Assembly (NCBI RefSeq): GCF_024509035.1
Contig: NZ_JANINT010000010.1
Coordinates: 1 to 64,000, forward strand
Origin: Nocardioides sp.
GTDB taxonomy: Bacteria > Actinomycetota > Actinomycetes > Propionibacteriales > Nocardioidaceae
Reading direction: 5' to 3'
DNA length: 64,000 nucleotides
Position numbers and translations under genes: made by a program. Below the pieces are notes generated by a model, which saw only the letters and a list, made by a program, of their open reading frames with translations, ran no database searches and was not told where the DNA came from. Of the stretch, positions 3,456 to 18,280 are shown in pieces. The number at the start of each line of letters is the position of its first letter. Position 1 is the first letter of the stretch.

Positions 3456-3952
3456 TGCTGCCCGAGGGTCCGCCCGAGCTGGTCACCAGCGAGCGGCTCC
3501 GGCTGCCGGTCTGGACGCCGGAGGAGGCCGAGGACATCCGCGCCGGCCGCCGGCGCGAGGGATGGCACCGCGACTACCCGCGCCAGGACGACCGTGACGC
3601 CGCCACGATCTACCGCGTCGGCGACGCCTGGGCGCCGCGGCACATCGTGCGCGGCACGACGACCCTCGGCTCGATCGGGTTCTTCGGCCCCCCTGAGCCC
3701 GCGGCCGACGGCCTGCCGGAGGTCGAGGTGGGCTACGGCATGGTGGCGGAGGCCCGCGGCTGGGGCTTCGCCACCGAGGCGCTGCGTGCGCTGCTCGCCG
3801 AGACCGACCGGCTCGGCGTACGCGTCCGGGCGAGCGTCGAGCCCACGAACGCCGCGAGCATCCGGGTGCTCGCCACGTGCGGGTTCACCGAGCTGCGCGG
3901 CAGCAACGAGGACGGCGAGCTCGTGATGGTGCGGCCGCTGCCGGCGCCATGA
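3455..3952 (+). CDS. GNAT-family N-acetyltransferase
   Basis: ATG at 3455 shares one base with the upstream stop (TGATG), giving a 165-residue protein. It begins with the SERLRLPVW pattern usual for RimJ/RimL-like GNAT enzymes. The acetyl-CoA binding region is seen in VGYGMVAEARGWGFATEA, followed by VEPTNAASIRVLATCGF, the Asn-X-Ala-Ser-X-X-Val-Leu signature of this subgroup. Translational coupling with both flanking HAD genes suggests one transcript. The acceptor (amine or protein N-terminus) cannot be inferred. Confidence 0.88.
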   Translation: MLPEGPPELVTSERLRLPVWTPEEAEDIRAGRRREGWHRDYPRQDDRDAATIYRVGDAWAPRHIVRGTTTLGSIGFFGPPEPAADGLPEVEVGYGMVAEARGWGFATEALRALLAETDRLGVRVRASVEPTNAASIRVLATCGFTELRGSNEDGELVMVRPLPAP

Positions 3953-4743
3953 ACCGCCCACGCCTGGTCGCCACCGACCTCGACGGCACGCTCGTCCGCT
4001 CGGACGGCACGGTCTCGCCGTACACCGCCGAGGTGCTCGCCGCCGTCGAGGCGACCGGGGCGGTCGTGGTGTTCGTGACCGGCCGGCCGCTGCGCTGGGC
4101 CGCGGAGGTCTTCGAGCACGTCGGCGAGCACGGCCTTGCCATCGTGGCCAACGGGGCCCTGGTCTGGGACGTCGGCCGCCACGACGTGCACCTGCTCCGG
4201 CCGATCGATCCCGCGCTCGGGCTCGAGGCCTGCCGGCTGCTCCGCGCGGCGGTCCCGGACACGGCGTTCGCAGTCGAGACGCTGGGAGGGATCGCCGTGG
4301 AGGAGGGGTTCGCCGACGACCATCGGGTCCCCGCCGGCGCGCGCCACGCGCCGCTGGCCGAGCTCTTCGACGAACCGGTGGTCAAGCTGCTCGCGCGTCA
4401 CGAGCAGCTGCAGCCCCAGGAGTTCTGGGACCTCGCGGAAGAGGTGCTCGAGGGCCGGCTGGTGATCACCTGGTCGTCGAGCTCCGCGCTGCTGGAGATC
4501 AGTGCGCCCGGGGTCACCAAGGCCTCGACGCTGGCGCTGCTGTGCGACGACCTCGGCGTCAGCGCCGAGGAGGTCATCGCGTTCGGCGACATGCCCAACG
4601 ACCTGCCGATGCTGGCCTGGGCCGGGACGGCGTACGCGATGGCCGACGCCCACCCGACCGTCACGGCGGCGGCCGACCACGTCGCGCCCGGCCATGACGA
4701 CGACGGTGTCGCGCGGGTCCTGGCTGGTGTCTTCGACCTGTGA
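3949..4743 (+). CDS. HAD-superfamily hydrolase, Cof type (second copy)
   Basis: ATG at 3949 overlaps the GNAT stop by 4 bp (ATGA), giving 264 residues. Motif I is ATDLDGTLV, motif II FVTGRPL, the motif III Lys lies in GVTKASTLALL and motif IV is GDMPNDLPML. Organisation matches the HAD protein at 2583, but the sequence is clearly different, so this is a paralogue rather than a fresh duplicate. Predicted cytoplasmic small-molecule phosphatase with unknown substrate; last gene of the serS run. Confidence 0.92.
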   Translation: MNRPRLVATDLDGTLVRSDGTVSPYTAEVLAAVEATGAVVVFVTGRPLRWAAEVFEHVGEHGLAIVANGALVWDVGRHDVHLLRPIDPALGLEACRLLRAAVPDTAFAVETLGGIAVEEGFADDHRVPAGARHAPLAELFDEPVVKLLARHEQLQPQEFWDLAEEVLEGRLVITWSSSSALLEISAPGVTKASTLALLCDDLGVSAEEVIAFGDMPNDLPMLAWAGTAYAMADAHPTVTAAADHVAPGHDDDGVARVLAGVFDL

Positions 4744-4752
4744 TCTGTTGAG

Positions 4753-5343
4753 ATGGACGGCGTGCCTGTGACCCGTGCCCTGCTCTCCGCGCTGCTGCTG
4801 GCCGGCAGCCTGCTGGTCGCGACGCCCGGCGGCGCGACGGCAGCGCCCGACGGACGGTGCCCGCAGTCGCGCGCAGGCATCGACCAGCTCACGATGAAGG
4901 CCGACGACGTCTTCACCGCCACCGTCGACAAGCGCACCGGTCAGGGCCGCACGGTGGTCTACGACGTCTCGGTCGACCGGGTCTACAAGGGCGACCTCGA
5001 CTCGGTCGAGGCCACCGTGTCGACGCCGTCGTCGGCGCGGGAGTGCGGCCTACCCGACCTGCGGGCGGGGACGGACTACGTCTTCTTCACCGCCGGTGCC
5101 GACCTGGAGACCACGAGCACCTCCGGCACCGCGCAGGCCACCGACGCCCGCGTCGGACGGATCGAGCGGCTGCTCGGCGAGGGGCGCAGCGTGGCACCCG
5201 TCGAGCCCGCGGAGGCGACGTTCACCCGGGTCGCCGGGGAGCGCACCAGCTTCGAGCGGCTCGCCGCCCCCGGTGCCGCCCTGGCCATCGTCGGTGTCCT
5301 CGGGCTGCTGCTCGTCGCCGGGCTGGGGCGCCGGCGCTCCTGA
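4753..5343 (+). CDS. secreted, C-terminally anchored protein of TIMP/NTR-like appearance
   Basis: 196 residues. An N-terminal signal peptide (ALLSALLLAGSLLVATPGGATA) is followed by about 110 extracellular residues, a second hydrophobic helix near the C-terminus (GAALAIVGVLGLLLVAG) and a short basic tail, so the protein is probably anchored with its body outside. The body has two cysteines (CPQSR near the mature N-terminus and ECGLPD) and a strand pattern (VFTATVDK, YDVSVDRVYKG, DYVFF) that recalls bacterial TIMP/netrin-like domains; this match is by eye. GTG codons at 4762 and 4768 are alternative starts. Function unknown. Confidence 0.75.
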   Translation: MDGVPVTRALLSALLLAGSLLVATPGGATAAPDGRCPQSRAGIDQLTMKADDVFTATVDKRTGQGRTVVYDVSVDRVYKGDLDSVEATVSTPSSARECGLPDLRAGTDYVFFTAGADLETTSTSGTAQATDARVGRIERLLGEGRSVAPVEPAEATFTRVAGERTSFERLAAPGAALAIVGVLGLLLVAGLGRRRS

Positions 5344-11536: not shown

Positions 11537-11629
11537 GGAGGCGTCGCCTAGTCCGGTCTATGGCGCCCGCCTGCTAAGCGGGTTGAGGGCAAACCCCTCT
11601 CGCGGGTTCAAATCCCGCCGCCTCCGCCA
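11537..11629 (+). tRNA. tRNA-Ser (anticodon GCT), CCA encoded
   Basis: Acceptor GGAGGCG pairs with CGCCTCC, anticodon stem CCCGC/GCGGG with loop CTGCTAA, long class II variable arm (TTGAGGGCAAACCCCTCT), T-stem GCGGG/CCCGC with loop TTCAAAT, discriminator G, encoded CCA. It borders the LuxR/peptide island on its left. Confidence 0.96.
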
Positions 11630-11743: not shown

Positions 11744-12511
11744 ATGGTGGACGAGGTCGGGTTCACGCATGGGCCGCGCTCGCGCATCACCGAGGAGCGC
11801 CGCCAGGCAGCGCTGGACGCCGCAGCCGTCCTCCAGCTCCGCCGCAGTGAGATCGCCGCGTGCCTCGCGCGCGGCGAGCCGTGTGAGGCGGAGGTGGTCG
11901 CGCGGACGCTGGCCGGTGCGCAGCTCTGGATCCGCGACGAGATCCGCGCCTGGCGCGAGCTGCTGACCGTGCGCCCGTCGGGCACCCTGCCGCACCTGCG
12001 AGTGAGCCTGCCCTACAACCGTGAGGTGATCGCGAACGGTCTGCGGATGATCAGTCTCTGGGACTGGGACGGCCTCAAGCCGGAGGCCCGCCGTCTGCTG
12101 GCGGGGGAGCGGGTGGGCCGCTACCTGTTCGGCGTCGGCCCGGTGCAGATGAACATCGTCGACCGCCGCTTCGTGGTGCTCCAGGGCCCGTTCCTCGACG
12201 GCGAGCCGACCGTGATGGCCGTGACCGCGCCGGACTGCGTCGCCGCGGCCTGGCAGTACTGGCATGCCGCCGTGGCGTCCTCCTACCCGGCGGACGAGGA
12301 CGAGGCGGTCGAGCTCGAGGGCCTGACGCCTCGACAGCGTCAGATCGCGGCGCTGCTCGCCGTGGACACCCGGGACGAGGCGATCGCCGAGACGCTGGGC
12401 GTGAGCGTGCGCACCGTGCGCGCGGACGTCGCCCAGCTCATGGCCGCTCTCGGGGTCCGCTCGCGGTTCGCGGCCGGCACCCGCTTCCGCGAGATGGTGG
12501 ACGACGGATGA
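11744..12511 (+). CDS. LuxR-type regulator with central VDRR effector domain (paralogue 1)
   Basis: 255 residues from ATG 11744. The C-terminus (about 190-250) is a LuxR-type helix-turn-helix: LTPRQRQIAALLAVDTRDEAIAETLGVSVRTVRADVAQLM. The middle contains VDRRFVVLQGP at about residue 138, a pattern seen in TrmB/phospholipase-D-like sensory folds. The N-terminal helical segment starts HGPRSRITEERRQAALDAA. Its stop overlaps the start of paralogue 2 (ATGA), so the two are translationally coupled. No receiver or GAF domain is present, so a directly sensed small ligand or peptide is more likely than phosphorylation. First of three tandem homologues leading to a small secreted-peptide gene. Confidence 0.9.
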   Translation: MVDEVGFTHGPRSRITEERRQAALDAAAVLQLRRSEIAACLARGEPCEAEVVARTLAGAQLWIRDEIRAWRELLTVRPSGTLPHLRVSLPYNREVIANGLRMISLWDWDGLKPEARRLLAGERVGRYLFGVGPVQMNIVDRRFVVLQGPFLDGEPTVMAVTAPDCVAAAWQYWHAAVASSYPADEDEAVELEGLTPRQRQIAALLAVDTRDEAIAETLGVSVRTVRADVAQLMAALGVRSRFAAGTRFREMVDDG

Positions 12512-13284
12512 TCGCGCCAGCGTCGTTCCACGGGTCCACCCACGGTCCGCGCTCGCGCATCACGGAGGAGCGCCGTCAGGGGGTGCTTGACGCCGTGGCA
12601 CTCCTGCAGATCGCTCGCAGTGAGATCGCAACCTGCCTTGCGCGGGGCGAGCCGTGCGAGGCGGAGGTGGTCGCTCGCACCACCAGCGGTGCCCAGCTGT
12701 GGATCCACGACGAGGTCACCCGCTGGCGTGAGCTGTTGACCGTGCGTCCTGCGGGCACGGCGGGACCACTGCGGTCGATCCTCCCTCGCAACCGGGAGCT
12801 GATCGCCAACGGCCTGCAGATGGTGAGCCTGTGGGACTGGGACGGGCTCAAGCCCGAGGCGCGCCGGCTGCTGGCAGGGGAGCGGGTCGGTCGCTACTTG
12901 TTCGGGGTGGGGCCGGTGCAGATGAACCTCGTCGATCGGCGGTGGGTCCTGTTGCAGGGCCCCATGGTGGAGGGTGAGCCCACGGTGATGGCGGTGACCG
13001 ACCCGGCCTGTCTTGCAGCCGCGTGGCGGTACTGGCATGCCGCGGTGGCGTCGTCGTATCCGGCGGACGAGGACGAGGCGGTCGAGCTCGAGGGCCTGAC
13101 GACTCGCCAGCGGCAGGTGGCGGCGCTGCTCGCGGTGGACATCCGGGACGAGGCGATCGCCGAGACGCTGGGCGTGAGCGTGCGCACCGTGCGCGCGGAC
13201 GTCGCCCAGCTCATGGCCGCTCTCGGGGTCCGCTCGCGCTTCGCCGCGGGCGTTCGCTTCCGCGCCGCGATCGAGGAGCCGTGA
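12508..13284 (+). CDS. LuxR-type regulator with central VDRR effector domain (paralogue 2)
   Basis: 258 residues from ATG 12508, overlapping paralogue 1 by 4 bp. Same layout: N-terminal THGPRSRITEERRQGVLDAV, central MNLVDRRWVLLQGP, C-terminal LTTRQRQVAALLAVDIRDEAIAETLGVSVRTVRADV. The helix-turn-helix coding DNA (13143-13238) is identical over 96 bp to 12370-12465 in paralogue 1, while the middle of the protein is more divergent. This points to a recent duplication or gene conversion that keeps DNA recognition the same and lets the sensing part vary. Predicted cytoplasmic DNA-binding regulator. Confidence 0.9.
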   Translation: MIAPASFHGSTHGPRSRITEERRQGVLDAVALLQIARSEIATCLARGEPCEAEVVARTTSGAQLWIHDEVTRWRELLTVRPAGTAGPLRSILPRNRELIANGLQMVSLWDWDGLKPEARRLLAGERVGRYLFGVGPVQMNLVDRRWVLLQGPMVEGEPTVMAVTDPACLAAAWRYWHAAVASSYPADEDEAVELEGLTTRQRQVAALLAVDIRDEAIAETLGVSVRTVRADVAQLMAALGVRSRFAAGVRFRAAIEEP

Positions 13285-13398
13285 GGCGCAATGATTCTTG
13301 CCTTGCCTCGGCCGCGGTCTGCGGTCCTGGCCACGCGGGACCACCCCTTGCTCACGGACGAGTTGGTCGGGGGGTACTGATGGATCGGGGGCTCGTTG

Positions 13399-14154
13399 AT
13401 GGACCAGGTGAACCTGGGGCCGCGACATCGCATGCCGCATGAGCGCCTGCACGCCGTGCTGGACGCGGCGGCAGTCCTGCAGGTGCGCCGCAGCGAGCTC
13501 GCCTCGGCACTCGAGCGAGGCCAGGCCTGCGGGGCATGGGTGGTCGCTCGGGGCCTCTCGGCCGTCAACGACTGGATACGTGAGGACATCAAGGGCTGGC
13601 GCGACCTGCTATCGGTGCGTCCTTCGGCGACGGTGGCCGAGCTCAGGGTCTCCGTCCCGTACAACCGGCAACTGGTGGAGAACGGCCTCCGCATGGTGAG
13701 CCTGTTCGACTGGTACGGCCTCGACCCGGCCTCGCGACAGCTCCTCGCCGGGGAGCAGCTCGGGGACTACCGCCTGGGGGTGGCGCCCGTCCAGATGAAG
13801 ATCGTGGACCGCCGCAACGTGCTCCTCCAGGGGCCGTTTGTCGATGGTGAGATGACCCTGATGGTGGTCACTGCGTCGGATTGTATGGCGGCGGCGTGGC
13901 AGTACTGGCACGCGGCGTTGGCAGGGTGCTACCCGGCGGCCGAAGAGCGACGGGACCTGCGGCAGCTCACCCACCGCCAGCGCCAGGTCGCGGCTCTGCT
14001 TGCGGAGGATGCCCGTGACGAGGTGATCGCAGAGACGCTCGGCGTGAGCGTCCGCACCGTGCGGGCGGACGTTGCGCGCCTCATGGACGCGCTGGGTGTC
14101 CGGTCCCGGTTCGCCGCCGGCGCGCGTTTCGCGGAGCTCAGCGGCGAGCGCTGA
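13399..14154 (+). CDS. LuxR-type regulator with central VDRR effector domain (paralogue 3)
   Basis: 251 residues from ATG 13399 (the track uses the TTG just before it), after a 114-bp gap from paralogue 2 that contains a candidate promoter. It is the most divergent of the three: N-terminal LGPRHRMPHERLHAVLDAAAVLQ, central MKIVDRRNVLLQGP, C-terminal LTHRQRQVAALLAEDARDEVIAETLGVSVRTVRADVARLMDALG. The recognition helix (SVRTVRADVA) is the same as in the other two, so all three may bind the same site. A TTGCA-N6-TGCAA palindrome starts 15 bp after its stop codon. Confidence 0.9.
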   Translation: MDQVNLGPRHRMPHERLHAVLDAAAVLQVRRSELASALERGQACGAWVVARGLSAVNDWIREDIKGWRDLLSVRPSATVAELRVSVPYNRQLVENGLRMVSLFDWYGLDPASRQLLAGEQLGDYRLGVAPVQMKIVDRRNVLLQGPFVDGEMTLMVVTASDCMAAAWQYWHAALAGCYPAAEERRDLRQLTHRQRQVAALLAEDARDEVIAETLGVSVRTVRADVARLMDALGVRSRFAAGARFAELSGER

Positions 14155-14168
14155 CCCAAGGGGCCCGG

Positions 14169-14184
14169 TTGCAGGTTCCTGCAA
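14169..14184. promoter_or_regulatory. palindromic operator candidate, site 1 (TTGCA-N6-TGCAA)
   Basis: TTGCA GGTTCC TGCAA, part of the longer perfect palindrome GTTGCAG-GTTC-CTGCAAC. The half-sites and 6-bp spacer are the same as in site 2. Size and symmetry suit a dimeric LuxR-type helix-turn-helix. Confidence 0.6.
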
Positions 14185-14287
14185 CAGGCGCGACGACGTG
14201 GCTGGCCGCGCCCTAGGCTCCAGGCCGGGTCGGGGCTGACTGCCCTCGATCGCGTGCCGGGCTGCCACGGGGGACAGTCCGGATGCG

Positions 14288-14317
14288 GCTCCCGCTCCCT
14301 GATCCGGGTGCGGGAGC
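14288..14317 (+). terminator. hairpin in the peptide-gene leader
   Basis: GCTCCCGC pairs with GCGGGAGC across a 14-nt loop. It could end transcription from the three regulators, or act as an attenuator between site 1 and the peptide gene. No T-tract. Confidence 0.5.
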
Positions 14318-14365
14318 TCGGCCCACGTGGGGGCCGCCCGTCCCGTGATTCATGCATGCAAGCCG

Positions 14366-14381
14366 TTGCAGAAATGTGCAA
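14366..14381. promoter_or_regulatory. palindromic operator candidate, site 2 (TTGCA-N6-TGCAA)
   Basis: TTGCA GAAATG TGCAA in an AT-rich stretch about 106 bp before the peptide start codon. A further TGCAA half-site lies at 14357. Same half-sites and spacing as site 1, 197 bp apart. Confidence 0.6.
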
Positions 14382-14486
14382 TGCACAATTTTGAGGCGGT
14401 CGTTTCTTCGCGTGCGGACGCCTCGCGCCAGGACAATCGTCGCACCGGGTCTTCCGTGGGACCCGCGTAGAAGGTGGAGAGGGAAC

Positions 14487-14621
14487 ATGAACATTGCACG
14501 TAAGGTCGCCGTCGCCGCTATCACCGCGACGCTGAGCTTCGGCCTTCTGGGGATCTCGGCCCCGGCGCACGCCGACAGCAGCTGGGGCATCGGCCGCCCC
14601 GGTCCCGGCGGGGGTCGCTAA
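14487..14621 (+). CDS. secreted small peptide precursor, candidate signalling peptide
   Basis: 44 codons from ATG 14487, supported by GGTGGAGAGGGAAC just upstream; the track's longer ORF from 14352 lacks such a site. The product has a textbook signal peptide (basic NIARK, hydrophobic VAVAAITATLSFGLLGISA, then APAHA). Cleavage after AHA would release DSSWGIGRPGPGGGR, 15 residues rich in Gly, Pro and Arg with one Trp and no Cys. It lies between three LuxR-type regulators upstream and a convergent related regulator downstream, with palindromic sites in its leader. Most likely an exported pheromone or other bioactive peptide; no protease or maturation enzyme is encoded nearby. The role is inferred, the coding call is strong. 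Confidence 0.8.
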   Translation: MNIARKVAVAAITATLSFGLLGISAPAHADSSWGIGRPGPGGGR

Positions 14622-14627
14622 CAGCTC

Positions 14628-14698
14628 GGTCGAGCCGGGGACCCAACTCACCCCCCACTTGTTCGGTCCCAGTGCCACCCCCCCGGCCCGGCTCGACC
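14628..14698. repeat. long-range inverted repeat after the peptide gene
   Basis: GGTCGAGCCGGG at 14628-14639 is the perfect reverse complement of CCCGGCTCGACC at 14687-14698, with a C-rich 47-nt loop. It directly precedes the strong terminator at 14703 and may stabilise the 3' end of the short peptide mRNA. Confidence 0.55.
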
Positions 14699-14702
14699 AC
14701 CA

Positions 14703-14743
14703 TGACGAAGGGCAGTGACGCAAAGCGTCACTGCCCTTCGTCA
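14703..14743. terminator. strong bidirectional hairpin between peptide gene and convergent regulator
   Basis: Perfect 19-bp stem (TGACGAAGGGCAGTGACGC and its complement) with loop AAA, located between the two convergent genes. Confidence 0.88.
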
Positions 14744-14769
14744 CGTCTCTGTCGAGCCAGGGTCGGTGC

Positions 14770-15792
14770 CTAGTCTGCCGTGATCTCTTCGTCGCCGTCC
14801 TCATCGTCCGTCCCGGTAATGCCCAAACGCCCGATGCGGTAGCCGAGCTGGAAACGCGTCTCGGCCTCGAACTCCTCCTTGAGATCGGCGATGTAGCCCG
14901 CATAGGTCCGCGGGCTCACGCCCAGACGCTTGGCGGAGACCGGGTCGGAGTGCCCCTCGATCAGCATCCGGAGCGTCATCGACCGCTGCTCGGAGGCGAT
15001 GTCGCGCATGACCGAGGCCTCACTGCTGGTGAACGGGCGCCCTCGCTCCCACGAGCGCTCGAACACGTCGACCAAGTAGGCCACCACGGACGGCTCCCGG
15101 ACCACCAAAGCGATGCGATGGGTCTCCTTGCTGGGCAGAATCGCCGTCCGGCGGTCGACCACGATCATCCGGTTGAAGAACTCGTCGAGGGTGCGCACCT
15201 CACCGCCGCGTGCCGTGATCTCAGCGACGTACTCTCGCGTCGAGTTGTTGCGACGCGCGCTGTGCTGGTACAGCGTGCGCATGCGAGCGCCTCGTTCGAG
15301 CAACGCGGTGTCGCGCAGCACCACATGGGGCAGCGCCTTAGTGTCGCGGATCGCCTGCGGTTGTGCGGTGAGCACCTCCTCCTCGCAGTCCGCCACCAGG
15401 CTGGCGATGAACGGGTCGATCTCCTCCAGCGGAAGGTAGGTGAACGGGCCACCGGCGATCTCCTGAGGTGCCCGGCGCCAGGCGTGCGACAGCGCGCCGA
15501 AGGCGGTCGCCCACTGGGACGACTCGCTCAGCAGCCGCGCGCCCTCCTGGCCGAGTGGCGACACCACGCGGGACTGGACGATCGCAGGATCCTGGGCCTC
15601 CCACCGGGCACTGTCCGAGGACATTCGCACCAGCCCCAGCGAGCGCAGCAGCTCCAGCGCGGGGTGAAGGTCACCTCCGGGTACGAGGCGCCGATCCTCG
15701 GTGGAGATCCCGCTGGCGGTGACCATCTCCTCGTAGAGCGCCGTGCCAGCACTCTCGAACAGTGCCCGATCGTCCGGACCCAAGGACTCCAC
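14770..15792 (-). CDS. LuxR-type regulator with central VDRR domain, distant homologue convergent with the peptide gene
   Basis: 340 residues from GTG 15792, chosen for the GGGGAGG site just upstream; the track's 473-residue version is an upstream extension. Three parts are seen: an N-terminal region resembling a winged-helix/TrmB-like module (ALYEEMVTASGIS, HPALELLRSLGLVRM); a central segment (about 120-260) with HSARRNNSTREYVAEITARGGEVR and IVVDRRTAILP as in TrmB/phospholipase-D-like ligand-binding folds; and a C-terminal helix-turn-helix (ISEG-type: LIEGHSDPVSAKRLGVSPRTYAGYIADL). The tail is acidic. The VDRR motif links it to the three regulators on the other side of the peptide gene. Likely a ligand-responsive transcription factor; the peptide is the obvious candidate ligand, though unproven. 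Confidence 0.86.
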   Translation of the reverse strand: MESLGPDDRALFESAGTALYEEMVTASGISTEDRRLVPGGDLHPALELLRSLGLVRMSSDSARWEAQDPAIVQSRVVSPLGQEGARLLSESSQWATAFGALSHAWRRAPQEIAGGPFTYLPLEEIDPFIASLVADCEEEVLTAQPQAIRDTKALPHVVLRDTALLERGARMRTLYQHSARRNNSTREYVAEITARGGEVRTLDEFFNRMIVVDRRTAILPSKETHRIALVVREPSVVAYLVDVFERSWERGRPFTSSEASVMRDIASEQRSMTLRMLIEGHSDPVSAKRLGVSPRTYAGYIADLKEEFEAETRFQLGYRIGRLGITGTDDEDGDEEITAD

Positions 15793-15935: not shown

Positions 15936-17783
15936 TCAGTCCCCGAGGCGGGCGCGCAGGCCGTCGAGCTCGGTCCAGAGGACGGCCGGCAGGTCGTCGC
16001 CGAACTTCTCGAACCACTCCTGGATCTGCGGCAGCTCCGCGCGCCACTCCTCGACGTCGACGGCGAGAGCGGCCTCGAGGTCCTCCCGGGACATGTCGAG
16101 GCCCTCGGTGTCGAGCGAGTCGGGGGTCGGCACGTGGCCGATCGGGGTCTCGACCGCGGCCGCCTGCCCGTCGATGCGCTCCACGACCCACTTCAGGACC
16201 CGGCTGTTCTCACCGAAGCCCGGCCACAGGAACCCGCCGTCGGCGTCGCGGCGGAACCAGTTGACGTAGAAGATCCGCGGCAGCTTGGCGGCGTCGTTGT
16301 CCTTGCCGACCGTGATCCAGTGGTTGAAGTAGTCGCCGGCGTTGTAGCCGATGAACGGCAGCATCGCCATCGGGTCGCGGCGTACGACGCCGACCTGGCC
16401 GACCGCGGCGGCGGTGGTCTCCGAGGAGAGCGTGGCGCCGAGGAACGTGCCGTGGGTCCAGTCGCGGGCCTCGAAGACCAGGGGGACGGTCGTCTTGCGC
16501 CGGCCGCCGAACAGGATCGCGTCGATCGGGACGCCGCGCGGGTCGTCGTACTCCGGCGCCAGGATGTCGCACTGCTTGATCGGGGTGCAGTAGCGGCTGT
16601 TGGGGTGGCTGGAGAGGAAGTCGCTCTCCGGAGTCCACTCCTCGCCCTTCCACGAGGTGGCCTTGGCCGGAGTGTTCTCCAGCCCCTCCCACCAGATGTC
16701 GCCGTCGGGGGTGAGGGCGACGTTGGTGAAGACCGAGTTGCCCTTGTTGATGGTGGCCATCGCGTTCGGGTTGGTGTGCTCGTTGGTGCCGGGCGCCACG
16801 CCGAAGAAGCCGTACTCGGGGTTGACCGCCCACAGCCGGCCGTCCTCGCCGACCCGCATCCAGGCGATGTCGTCGCCGAGGGTCTCCACCTTCCAGCCGG
16901 GGATCGTCGGCTTGAGCATCGCGAGGTTGGTCTTGCCGCAGGCGCTCGGGAACGCCGCCGCGACGTACTTCACCGTGCCCTCGGGCGAGGTCAGCTTGAG
17001 GATCAGCATGTGCTCGGCGAGCCAGCCCTCGTCGCGGGCCATCACGCTGGCGATGCGCAGGGCGTAGCACTTCTTGCCGAGCAGCGCGTTGCCGCCGTAG
17101 CCGGAGCCGTAGGACCAGATCGCCCGCTCCTCGGGGAACTGCACGATGTACTTGGTGTCGTTGCACGGCCAGGCGACGTCGGCCTGTCCCGGCTCGAGGG
17201 GGTGGCCGACCGAGTGCAGCGCCGGGACGAACTCGGCGTCGAGCTCCTCCATGCGCGCCAGCACGTTGCTGCCCATGCGGGCCATCACGCGCATCGAGGC
17301 GGTGACGTACGCCGAGTCGGTGATCTCCACGCCGAACATGGGCTTCTCGGCGTCGAGGTGACCCATCACGAACGGGATCACGTACATCGTGCGACCACGC
17401 ATGCACCCCTGGTAGAGGTCGCGCATCAGCGACTTCATCTCCTGGGGGTCCATCCAGTTGTTCGTCGGCCCCGCGTCGCGCTTGTCGACCGAGCAGATGT
17501 AGGTCCGGTCCTCGACGCGCGCCACGTCGATCGGGTCGGAGGCGGCGTAGAACGAGTTCGGCTTGATCTCGGGGTTGAGCCGCGTGAACGTGCCGGTCGA
17601 CACCAGCGCGTCGGTGAGCTCGGTCCACTCCTCGTCGGAGCCGGTGCACCAGTGGATGCGGTCGGGCTGCGTCATCGCAGCGACCTCGTTGACGAAGTCG
17701 AGGATGCCCTGGTGCGTGGTCGGCGGGCGGGTGCTCGTCGCCTCACCGGAGTCGGTGGTCGGTGCCTGCGTCTCGGCGGTCAT
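15936..17783 (-). CDS. pckG: phosphoenolpyruvate carboxykinase (GTP)
   Basis: 615 residues from ATG 17783 (GAGAGGGAA upstream); the track start at 17972 is an extension. Converts oxaloacetate plus GTP to PEP and CO2, linking the TCA cycle with gluconeogenesis. [13 protein letters not shown] is the GTP-PEPCK kinase-1 loop with the reactive Cys. Also typical are the substrate-binding region [34 protein letters not shown] and the C-terminal INWFR-like [26 protein letters not shown]. Length matches the family. It is flanked by a terminator and a 418-bp upstream region, so it is probably monocistronic. Confidence 0.98.
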
Positions 17784-18201
17784 TGCCTGGTTCCCTCTCG
17801 CGGATTCGCGGTGGACACCCGACTGTCGGGGCCTCCGGCCGTCGACGCGTCGACGGTGTGTCGTGGAGTCGGTCTTGGTGCGGCCGGCGTCGTTGGCGGC
17901 GACTTGGTGGGGCCCGGAGGAGGTCGGCCAACCGACCGGACCCCCTGGGGTGGGGCGACAGTACCCCTGCATTTCCGCGCGGACACATTGGAACGTTCAA
18001 CGCTCCGTGGGCTCCGTCACACTGCGAGAATCCCTGTCTACATAAGGCTTTCTTCCGCATTTTCGTGACCAAAGAACAGCGCGACGCGCGGTCCCTCCGG
18101 CGTCCTCGCGGACGTTGCGCAGCGGTCCTCCAGGCCCCGATTTCGGCCGTGGTCGGGAGGTCCGCTATCCTCGACAGGTCGCTCATCTCGATGCGCGGCG
18201 G
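17784..18201 (-). promoter_or_regulatory. 418-bp intergenic region upstream of pckG and tRNA-Arg
   Basis: No gene is seen. Reading toward pckG, a TACTGT hexamer (complement of 17958-17963) could be a -10 box. An imperfect 17-bp palindrome GGAACGTTCAACGCTCC lies at 17990-18006, upstream of it, and is a candidate regulator site. The segment 18000-18070 is notably AT-richer than the surroundings and probably also holds the tRNA-Arg promoter. Confidence 0.4.
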
Positions 18202-18274
18202 GCGCCCGTAGCTCAACGGATAGAGCATCTGACTACGGATCAGAAGGTTTGGGGTTCGAATCCCTACGGGCGCG
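18202..18274 (+). tRNA. tRNA-Arg (anticodon ACG)
   Basis: Acceptor GCGCCCG/CGGGCGC, anticodon stem TCTGA/TCAGA with loop CTACGGA, T-arm GGGGTTCGAATCCC. CCA is not encoded (followed by CAGG). A terminator hairpin follows. Confidence 0.95.
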
Positions 18275-18280
18275 CAGGTG

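Follow-up and report, generated by a model that had tools for sequence, protein, structure and literature searches.

A putative two-gene peptide signalling system in Nocardioides, with relatives in Streptomyces and a Streptomyces phage

We analysed a 64,000-nucleotide stretch of the draft genome of a Nocardioides species (contig NZ_JANINT010000010.1, positions 1 to 64,000; hereafter the window), which has a G+C content of 72.7% in a draft of 4.75 Mb. Within positions 11744–15792, a small gene encoding a precursor of 44 amino acids (aa) lies convergent to a regulator gene, termed R4, and downstream of three paralogous regulator genes, R1–R3. We consider it likely that the small gene and R4 form a two-gene signalling system, in which an exported peptide is sensed by the PLD-like domain of R4 after probable re-import. 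The evidence that carries this reading was obtained by computation and comprises the gene itself, its pairing with R4 relatives in distant genomes including a phage, a conserved D-x-x-W core (where x is any residue), concerted repeats of this core, covariation between core and regulator, and a promoter element. The features of the pair are as follows.

14487–14621, plus strand: gene for the 44-aa peptide precursor, a signal peptide followed by DSSWGIGRPGPGGGR; a conserved open reading frame (ORF)
14574–14588, plus strand: DSSWG, the predicted signal core, repeated elsewhere; its D and W do not vary among 30 precursors of the genus
14770–15792, minus strand: R4, conserved partner and predicted receptor; GTG start at 15792
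15310–15315, minus strand: R4 codons Arg160-Asp161, predicted from covariation to be specificity residues for peptide position 2

The peptide gene and its conserved partner

The peptide gene at 14487–14621 is real, beyond chance. Its precursor reads MNIARKVAVAAITATLSFGLLGISAPAHA followed by DSSWGIGRPGPGGGR, and GGTGGAGAGGGAAC precedes the ORF. Comparison of 11 close relatives gave a ratio of nonsynonymous to synonymous polymorphism (pN/pS) of 0.24 for codons 1–33, which indicates purifying selection, while the tails of precursors from close relatives are unalike. In the 30 aligned genus precursors the invariant residues are D30 and W33, and little is conserved past the next residue. In a set of 76 cores from Nocardioides, Thr or Ser prevails at position 2 and Ser, Thr or Gly at position 3, and Gly occupies position 5 in 64. 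Multi-copy precursors of Nocardioides carry identical 5-mers in all seven cases, with two or three copies each. Given the constrained codons 1–33, the unalike tails and the repetition of identical 5-mers, the active product is probably a peptide of four or five residues, which would be released by trimming. A preliminary description of the locus, made from the window alone, had predicted the release of a 15-mer; the whole 15-mer was rejected as the signal because its tail is free to vary, and only D-x-x-W(-G), four or five residues, is kept.

A search of 36 other genomes of the same genus recovered R4 orthologues of about 55–82% identity in 35, draft G031 alone giving no more than a distant match; orthologues up to 82% identical occur nearly all in records named Nocardioides. 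The flanks of the same-genus R4 loci were scanned for small ORFs that combine a ribosome-binding site, a start resembling a signal peptide and a D..W motif; almost every locus had one with D-x-x-W, convergent with R4. A readable peptide copy is present in 78 of 80 named Nocardioides R4 loci, 75 of them called by script and the rest by eye (L208; L219, leader decayed; L146, TSWG with the Asp lost). The remaining two are L211, where the copy is frameshifted, and L166, which lies at a contig edge. Locus L078 (3040–3940, genome G020) and L219 retain DTSWGGGS and an intact R4 behind a decayed signal-peptide core, and represent natural cases of a receptor without signal.

Most Nocardioides loci share the order tRNA-Ser(GCT), peptide gene, R4 and phosphoenolpyruvate (PEP) carboxykinase gene, and many also the tRNA-Arg(ACG). 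Of the loci checked, only the window, G032 (L079), L141 and L144 have R3-like genes between tRNA and peptide gene. R1–R3 are missing the N-terminal winged helix of R4 and most signature residues, including Asp161 and YQH; they are patchy, lineage-specific and derived extras. An ORF check recovered all five genes of the preliminary description at the same coordinates. That description had grouped all four regulators with the peptide; only the convergent R4 is a conserved partner, and R1–R3 occur at the locus in few species. Lack of conservation of the peptide gene beside the regulators in relatives, set beforehand as the refuting outcome, was found for R1–R3 as a general feature but not for the peptide–R4 pair. 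The other features of the locus are as follows.

11537–11629, plus strand: tRNA-Ser(GCT), called by ARAGORN; left boundary kept in nearly all named Nocardioides loci, outside the system
11744–12511, plus strand: R1, derived regulator with coiled coil, reduced PLD-like part and LuxR helix-turn-helix (HTH), without winged helix; patchy among relatives
12508–13284, plus strand: R2, paralogue of R1 with a 4-base overlap
13399–14154, plus strand: R3, paralogue with 67% identity to R1 and 63% to R2; ATG start, with TTG at 13396 as alternative
14169–14184, no strand: perfect palindrome TTGCAGGTTCCTGCAA, candidate second operator from a pattern search of the window
14366–14385, plus strand: candidate operator TTGCAGAAATGTGCAATGCA, conserved ahead of the peptide gene at about 66 of 76 Nocardioides loci
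14446–14465, plus strand: 5'-leader hairpin CGGGTCTTCCGTGGGACCCG, present in a subset of relatives
14703–14743, no strand: long inverted repeat between peptide gene and R4, likely a bidirectional terminator
15936–17972, minus strand: PEP carboxykinase gene, usual right-hand neighbour, outside the system
18202–18275, plus strand: tRNA-Arg(ACG), right-hand boundary in many relatives, outside the system

Architecture of R4 and its covariation with the peptide

A Pfam scan placed the LuxR-type HTH (PF00196) of R1–R3 above the cut-off and found neither a receiver domain nor an autoinducer-binding domain in R1–R4, in agreement with the earlier assignment of R1–R3 as LuxR-type regulators without receiver. 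R4 has no family match above the Pfam cut-off, and nothing in Pfam, NCBIfam, PHROGs or PADLOC covers R4 or the peptide. R3 and R4 are detectably homologous (R3 residues 89–247, E = 4.8e-4), and the C-terminal HTH of R4 is assigned via this homology and the predicted structure only. The AlphaFold2 model of R4, computed with 81 orthologues, has a mean predicted local distance difference test (pLDDT) score of 82.6 and a predicted template modelling (pTM) score of 0.46, the latter making the domain arrangement uncertain. It is composed of a winged helix (residues 1–67), a long coiled-coil helix (69–107), a PLD-like domain (111–255) and a LuxR-type HTH (258–325). The best matches of this model in the PDB, found with Foldseek, are TrmBL2 (E = 8e-12), the PLD-family protein Nuc (E = 3e-7) and the sugar-binding domain of TrmB (E = 3e-5). 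Among TrmB sequence models, that of Pfam does not match R4, and the NCBIfam TrmBL2 model scored 17.2 bits against one Streptomyces family member, far under its cut-off of 530 bits. As modelled, R4 is a TrmB-like/PLD-like receptor fold with a C-terminal LuxR-type HTH, rather than a classical LuxR-type regulator. The structure model of R3 (pLDDT 61) was too poor and was left unused. The source genome encodes a second R4-superfamily regulator (G000:C75:408-1217, L012; 28% identity), with relatives in many genus genomes; a D-x-x-W peptide was not found beside R4-superfamily paralogues such as this one on contig C75 and its orthologues.

We compared peptide and receptor in 76 Nocardioides pairs, to which a joint tree adds pairs from outside the genus. 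Differences between cores correlate with differences between PLD-like domains when the other domains are controlled for (partial Mantel r = 0.28, p = 0.005); in the same analysis the winged helix and coiled coil gave no signal and the HTH a weaker one. On the R4 tree, changes of R160 coincide with changes of core position 2 (6/8, p = 6e-5), and further columns covarying with the core cluster at R4 residues 130–164. Residue 160 is Arg in nearly all pairs with Ser or Thr at position 2 (S/T-type), and is mostly substituted if this position is Phe, Ile, Leu, Met or Tyr. On the joint tree, D161 is the column, among 293, that best follows whether position 2 is Ser/Thr or another residue (p = 1.5e-7), with seven of its 13 changes falling on the 11 class-change branches. 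The 88 S/T-type pairs have Asp (78) or Glu (10) at residue 161, and Asp occurs in none of the 18 other pairs; outside Nocardioides, all 23 S/T-type pairs have D161 and none of the eight others does. We infer that the PLD-like domain of R4 contacts the peptide directly, with residues 160–161 reading position 2. Joint variation of peptide and regulator middle domain, a check suggested in the preliminary description, is thus seen between the core and the PLD-like domain.

Distant relatives and the promoter element

A profile search with R4 detected relatives within the same family and more remote ones in Streptomyces. The Streptomyces precursors, which often begin with MRTKPTM, contain 1–10 D-x-x-W units whose middle residues are equal within one precursor: the repeats include DSTW (10 copies), DSGW and DVGW (7 each), DSSW and DIAW (5 each), and DSIW and DSAW (2 each), and other precursors have a single C-terminal DTVWD. 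Often the motif forms the very C-terminal end, preceded by long variable spacers. The pair is convergent in Nocardioides and mostly divergent from the nearest regulator in Streptomyces, the pairing being kept. A small-ORF detector gave 28 matches in 288 kb of regulator loci, 21 of them with at least two D-x-x-W motifs; in random Streptomyces DNA (400 kb) it gave four, all without repetition of the motif. The commonest Streptomyces locus adjoins what we take, from reading the sequences, to be a clpB-like gene and a gene for an ATP-binding cassette (ABC) substrate-binding protein. In one genome from outside the class, a precursor MGLLRR...YDTGWD adjoins a family regulator, and beside more distant regulators the precursor variants are DGAGWQ (twice), DLPW (twice) and DPIWG. 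Ends resembling D-x-x-x-W-Q/D occur in L248 (3926–4114), L261 (3686–3874) and L254 (3577–3744), reading DGAGWQ (twice), DSMGWQ and DANTWD, which suggests related dialects with one extra residue.

In Streptomyces, arrays of three to five tandem family regulators with one DxxW precursor (L121, G267:C7, 2926–8044) parallel R1–R3/R4, and in each such array one regulator deviates at residue 161. On one Streptomyces plasmid (L222, NZ_CP107895.1, 3025–4746), a family regulator and a small exported ORF ending in DSAWG lie beside beta-methylarginine biosynthesis genes; this pair may control antibiotic genes. Another plasmid (L223, NZ_CP108444.1, 2627–5134) combines a family regulator with an AfsA-related gene (gamma-butyrolactone type) and a small ORF for a secreted product containing DDEW, a possible contact point of two signalling systems.

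The pair is also phage-borne. In the temperate Streptomyces phage Chymera, gp29 is an R4 homologue (30% identity, E = 1e-16), and the divergent gp30 reads MRMGQRVIKIVTAVLFSAAAVVGVTATAQA followed by DPGWG...NDPGWG, with an integrase and an immunity repressor nearby. The gp29/gp30 pair (L221, KU958700.1 17214–26032) is located as follows.

3586–3765 of L221, minus strand, and 3911–4861, plus strand: Chymera pair gp29/gp30

Two more contigs from IMG/VR encode regulators with 88% and 68% identity to that of Chymera, and keep two copies of DPGWG with an altered linker; in IMG/VR only the Chymera regulator found matches, and the regulators of Nocardioides and Streptomyces found none. By analogy with arbitrium, gp29/gp30 is possibly a peptide-controlled switch of an actinophage.

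Upstream of about 66 of the 76 Nocardioides peptide genes, at a distance of about 75–100 nt, we found TTGCAGGATCCTGCAATGCAC..TGAGGCA or close variants. Allowing at most one mismatch, the 64-kb window contains two matches, TTGCAGAAATGTGCAATGCA at 14366 and TTGCAGGTTCCTGCAA at 14169, versus 0.15 expected, and a search of the source genome gave a full match at the peptide promoter only. In Streptomyces, a conserved CAGGGTCCTGAACRTGCAGGAACATGATGCA lies about as far upstream of most of the precursor genes examined. The likeness of the two elements suggests that the peptide gene is regulated by its own receptor, with R4 acting through a TGCA-type palindrome as putative operator. In a subset of Nocardioides, the leader of the peptide mRNA has a hairpin with a varying stem, about 21–25 nt before the start codon, the loop of which is often ATTCCGTG in relatives.

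A putative mechanism and its alternatives

Taken together, co-conservation, concerted repeats and specificity covariation strongly support the earlier proposal of an exported peptide and a directly sensing cytoplasmic regulator, and enable us to propose a putative model. The signal peptide would direct export of the precursor, and trimming would yield a very short linear D-x-x-W peptide, here DSSW or, more probably, DSSWG. Afterwards, the peptide would re-enter cells, for which an oligopeptide ABC importer is the simplest route, and bind to the PLD-like domain of the adjacent R4, the residues 160–161 of which would read position 2. Binding would alter the contact of R4 with the TGCA-type palindromes upstream of the peptide gene, resulting in autoregulation. 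R1–R3, being truncated versions of the receptor, may act by competition or heterodimerisation, or may respond to a different cue. Export, trimming, re-import, direct binding, the sign of regulation, the regulon and the roles of R1–R3 and of the phage pair all belong to this putative model.

Several points weigh against the model. Neither an importer nor a processing protease linked to the locus was identified, and TrmB, the best-studied regulator of this fold, binds sugars rather than peptides. Some Streptomyces-family regulators are without a detectable peptide neighbour. The covariation tests rely on Fitch parsimony along the tree of the regulator itself and, outside Nocardioides, pair each regulator with the nearest peptide gene; they exclude divergent subfamilies such as L260 (DLPW), which would align Asp at residue 161. 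The operator motif is missing at about ten Nocardioides loci, chiefly of the DTGW group. In the source genome, operator matches with two or three mismatches are not above a reversed-pattern control, and for this reason no regulon is claimed.

The cytoplasmic receptor and the lack of an identified linked importer would equally suit a sensor of export capacity, in which the regulator detects unexported or mis-processed precursor inside the cell and reports Sec traffic or the state of the membrane. Every intact copy does have a signal peptide, and the covariation is compatible with any direct peptide–regulator contact; however, identical D-x-x-W units joined by variable linkers, with the motif often at the extreme C-terminus behind long variable spacers, better fit the release of short peptides, and we regard such a sensor as improbable. 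We give still less credence to a secreted antimicrobial or ribosomally synthesised and post-translationally modified peptide (RiPP) with a local regulator, in which D-x-x-W would be the effector or core motif. The multi-core precursors do look like RiPP precursors, one from Streptomyces even matching thiovarsolin below the cut-off (21.9 versus 35 bits), but neither a tailoring enzyme nor a dedicated transporter was seen next to the genes, be it in Nocardioides or at those Streptomyces loci that were inspected, and the repeated units track regulator residue 161.

The specific covariation of PLD-like residues with peptide position 2 also makes it very unlikely that an unlinked membrane receptor senses the peptide outside the cell while R4 merely controls peptide expression, even though no importer was identified and R4 could act on the promoter element without a ligand. 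As for a chance ORF or a hitch-hiker preserved between tRNA genes, the Nocardioides locus is indeed syntenic from tRNA-Ser to tRNA-Arg. The selection on the ORF and its invariant D and W speak against this, and the pair in other orientation and context in Streptomyces and phage contradicts it, leaving it a negligible chance.

The putative system of peptide and R4 is reminiscent of the RRNPP family (Rap/Phr, Rgg/SHP, PlcR/PapR, PrgX and NprR), the general features of which are taken here from PMC10075063. Shared are a short exported precursor adjoining a cytoplasmic regulator of 250–500 aa, a presumably very short linear signal, and occurrence on plasmids and phages; as in RRNPP systems, the propeptide gene lies directly beside the receptor gene. 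RRNPP receptors, however, are tetratricopeptide repeat proteins, which R4 with its TrmB-like/PLD-like fold and LuxR HTH is not; the D-x-x-W system, though RRNPP-like, is therefore not a member. Moreover, RRNPP systems belong to Bacillota, whereas this one occurs in Actinomycetota and has a conserved motif and multi-copy precursors. With the arbitrium system (AimR/AimP) of Bacillus phages, Chymera shares a temperate lifestyle and a regulator and secreted-peptide gene near integrase and repressor; its receptor fold and peptide are unrelated, and the likeness is known from gene order alone. Archaeal TrmB and TrmBL2 have the winged helix, coiled coil and PLD-like effector domain predicted for R4, but R4 differs in its additional C-terminal LuxR-type HTH, the absence of a Pfam TrmB match and the partner peptide gene. 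LuxR solos and acyl-homoserine lactone receptors likewise have a C-terminal LuxR-type HTH and no linked synthase, whereas R1–R4 lack the autoinducer-binding domain and the sensor is PLD-like. From response regulators, R1–R4 differ by the absence of a receiver domain.

Signals of actinobacteria are typically small molecules made by enzymes, and genetically encoded peptides have been assigned to Bacillota (PMC10075063); a 2026 review names only gamma-butyrolactones for Streptomyces signalling (PMC13220807). In Streptomyces coelicolor, the ABC importer BldK takes up an extracellular oligopeptide signal that controls development (PMC11303876), and a link of D-x-x-W peptides to this signal is a hypothesis by analogy. 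We found no description of the D-x-x-W system in the openly licensed literature of PubMed Central, where the core strings DTTWG, DTSWG and DSSWG matched unrelated papers only, which is weak evidence.

In summary, on balance we favour the view that these pairs represent a phylum-wide, undescribed class of linear-peptide communication in Actinomycetota, with a specificity code at residues 160–161, numerous dialects in Streptomyces and a phage-borne version. If true, it would provide a second signalling language for this phylum, spanning Nocardioides, Streptomyces and a Streptomyces phage, together with a new peptide-sensing fold and its specificity code. The phage-borne version could inform decisions between lysis and lysogeny, and synthetic peptides of four to five residues would be an inexpensive means to induce genes of antibiotic producers. 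Uptake by BldK has long implied an oligopeptide signal, and some members could be signals of this type; the precursors described here offer concrete candidates for the oligopeptide signals of Streptomyces, whose sequence was not found stated in openly licensed papers.

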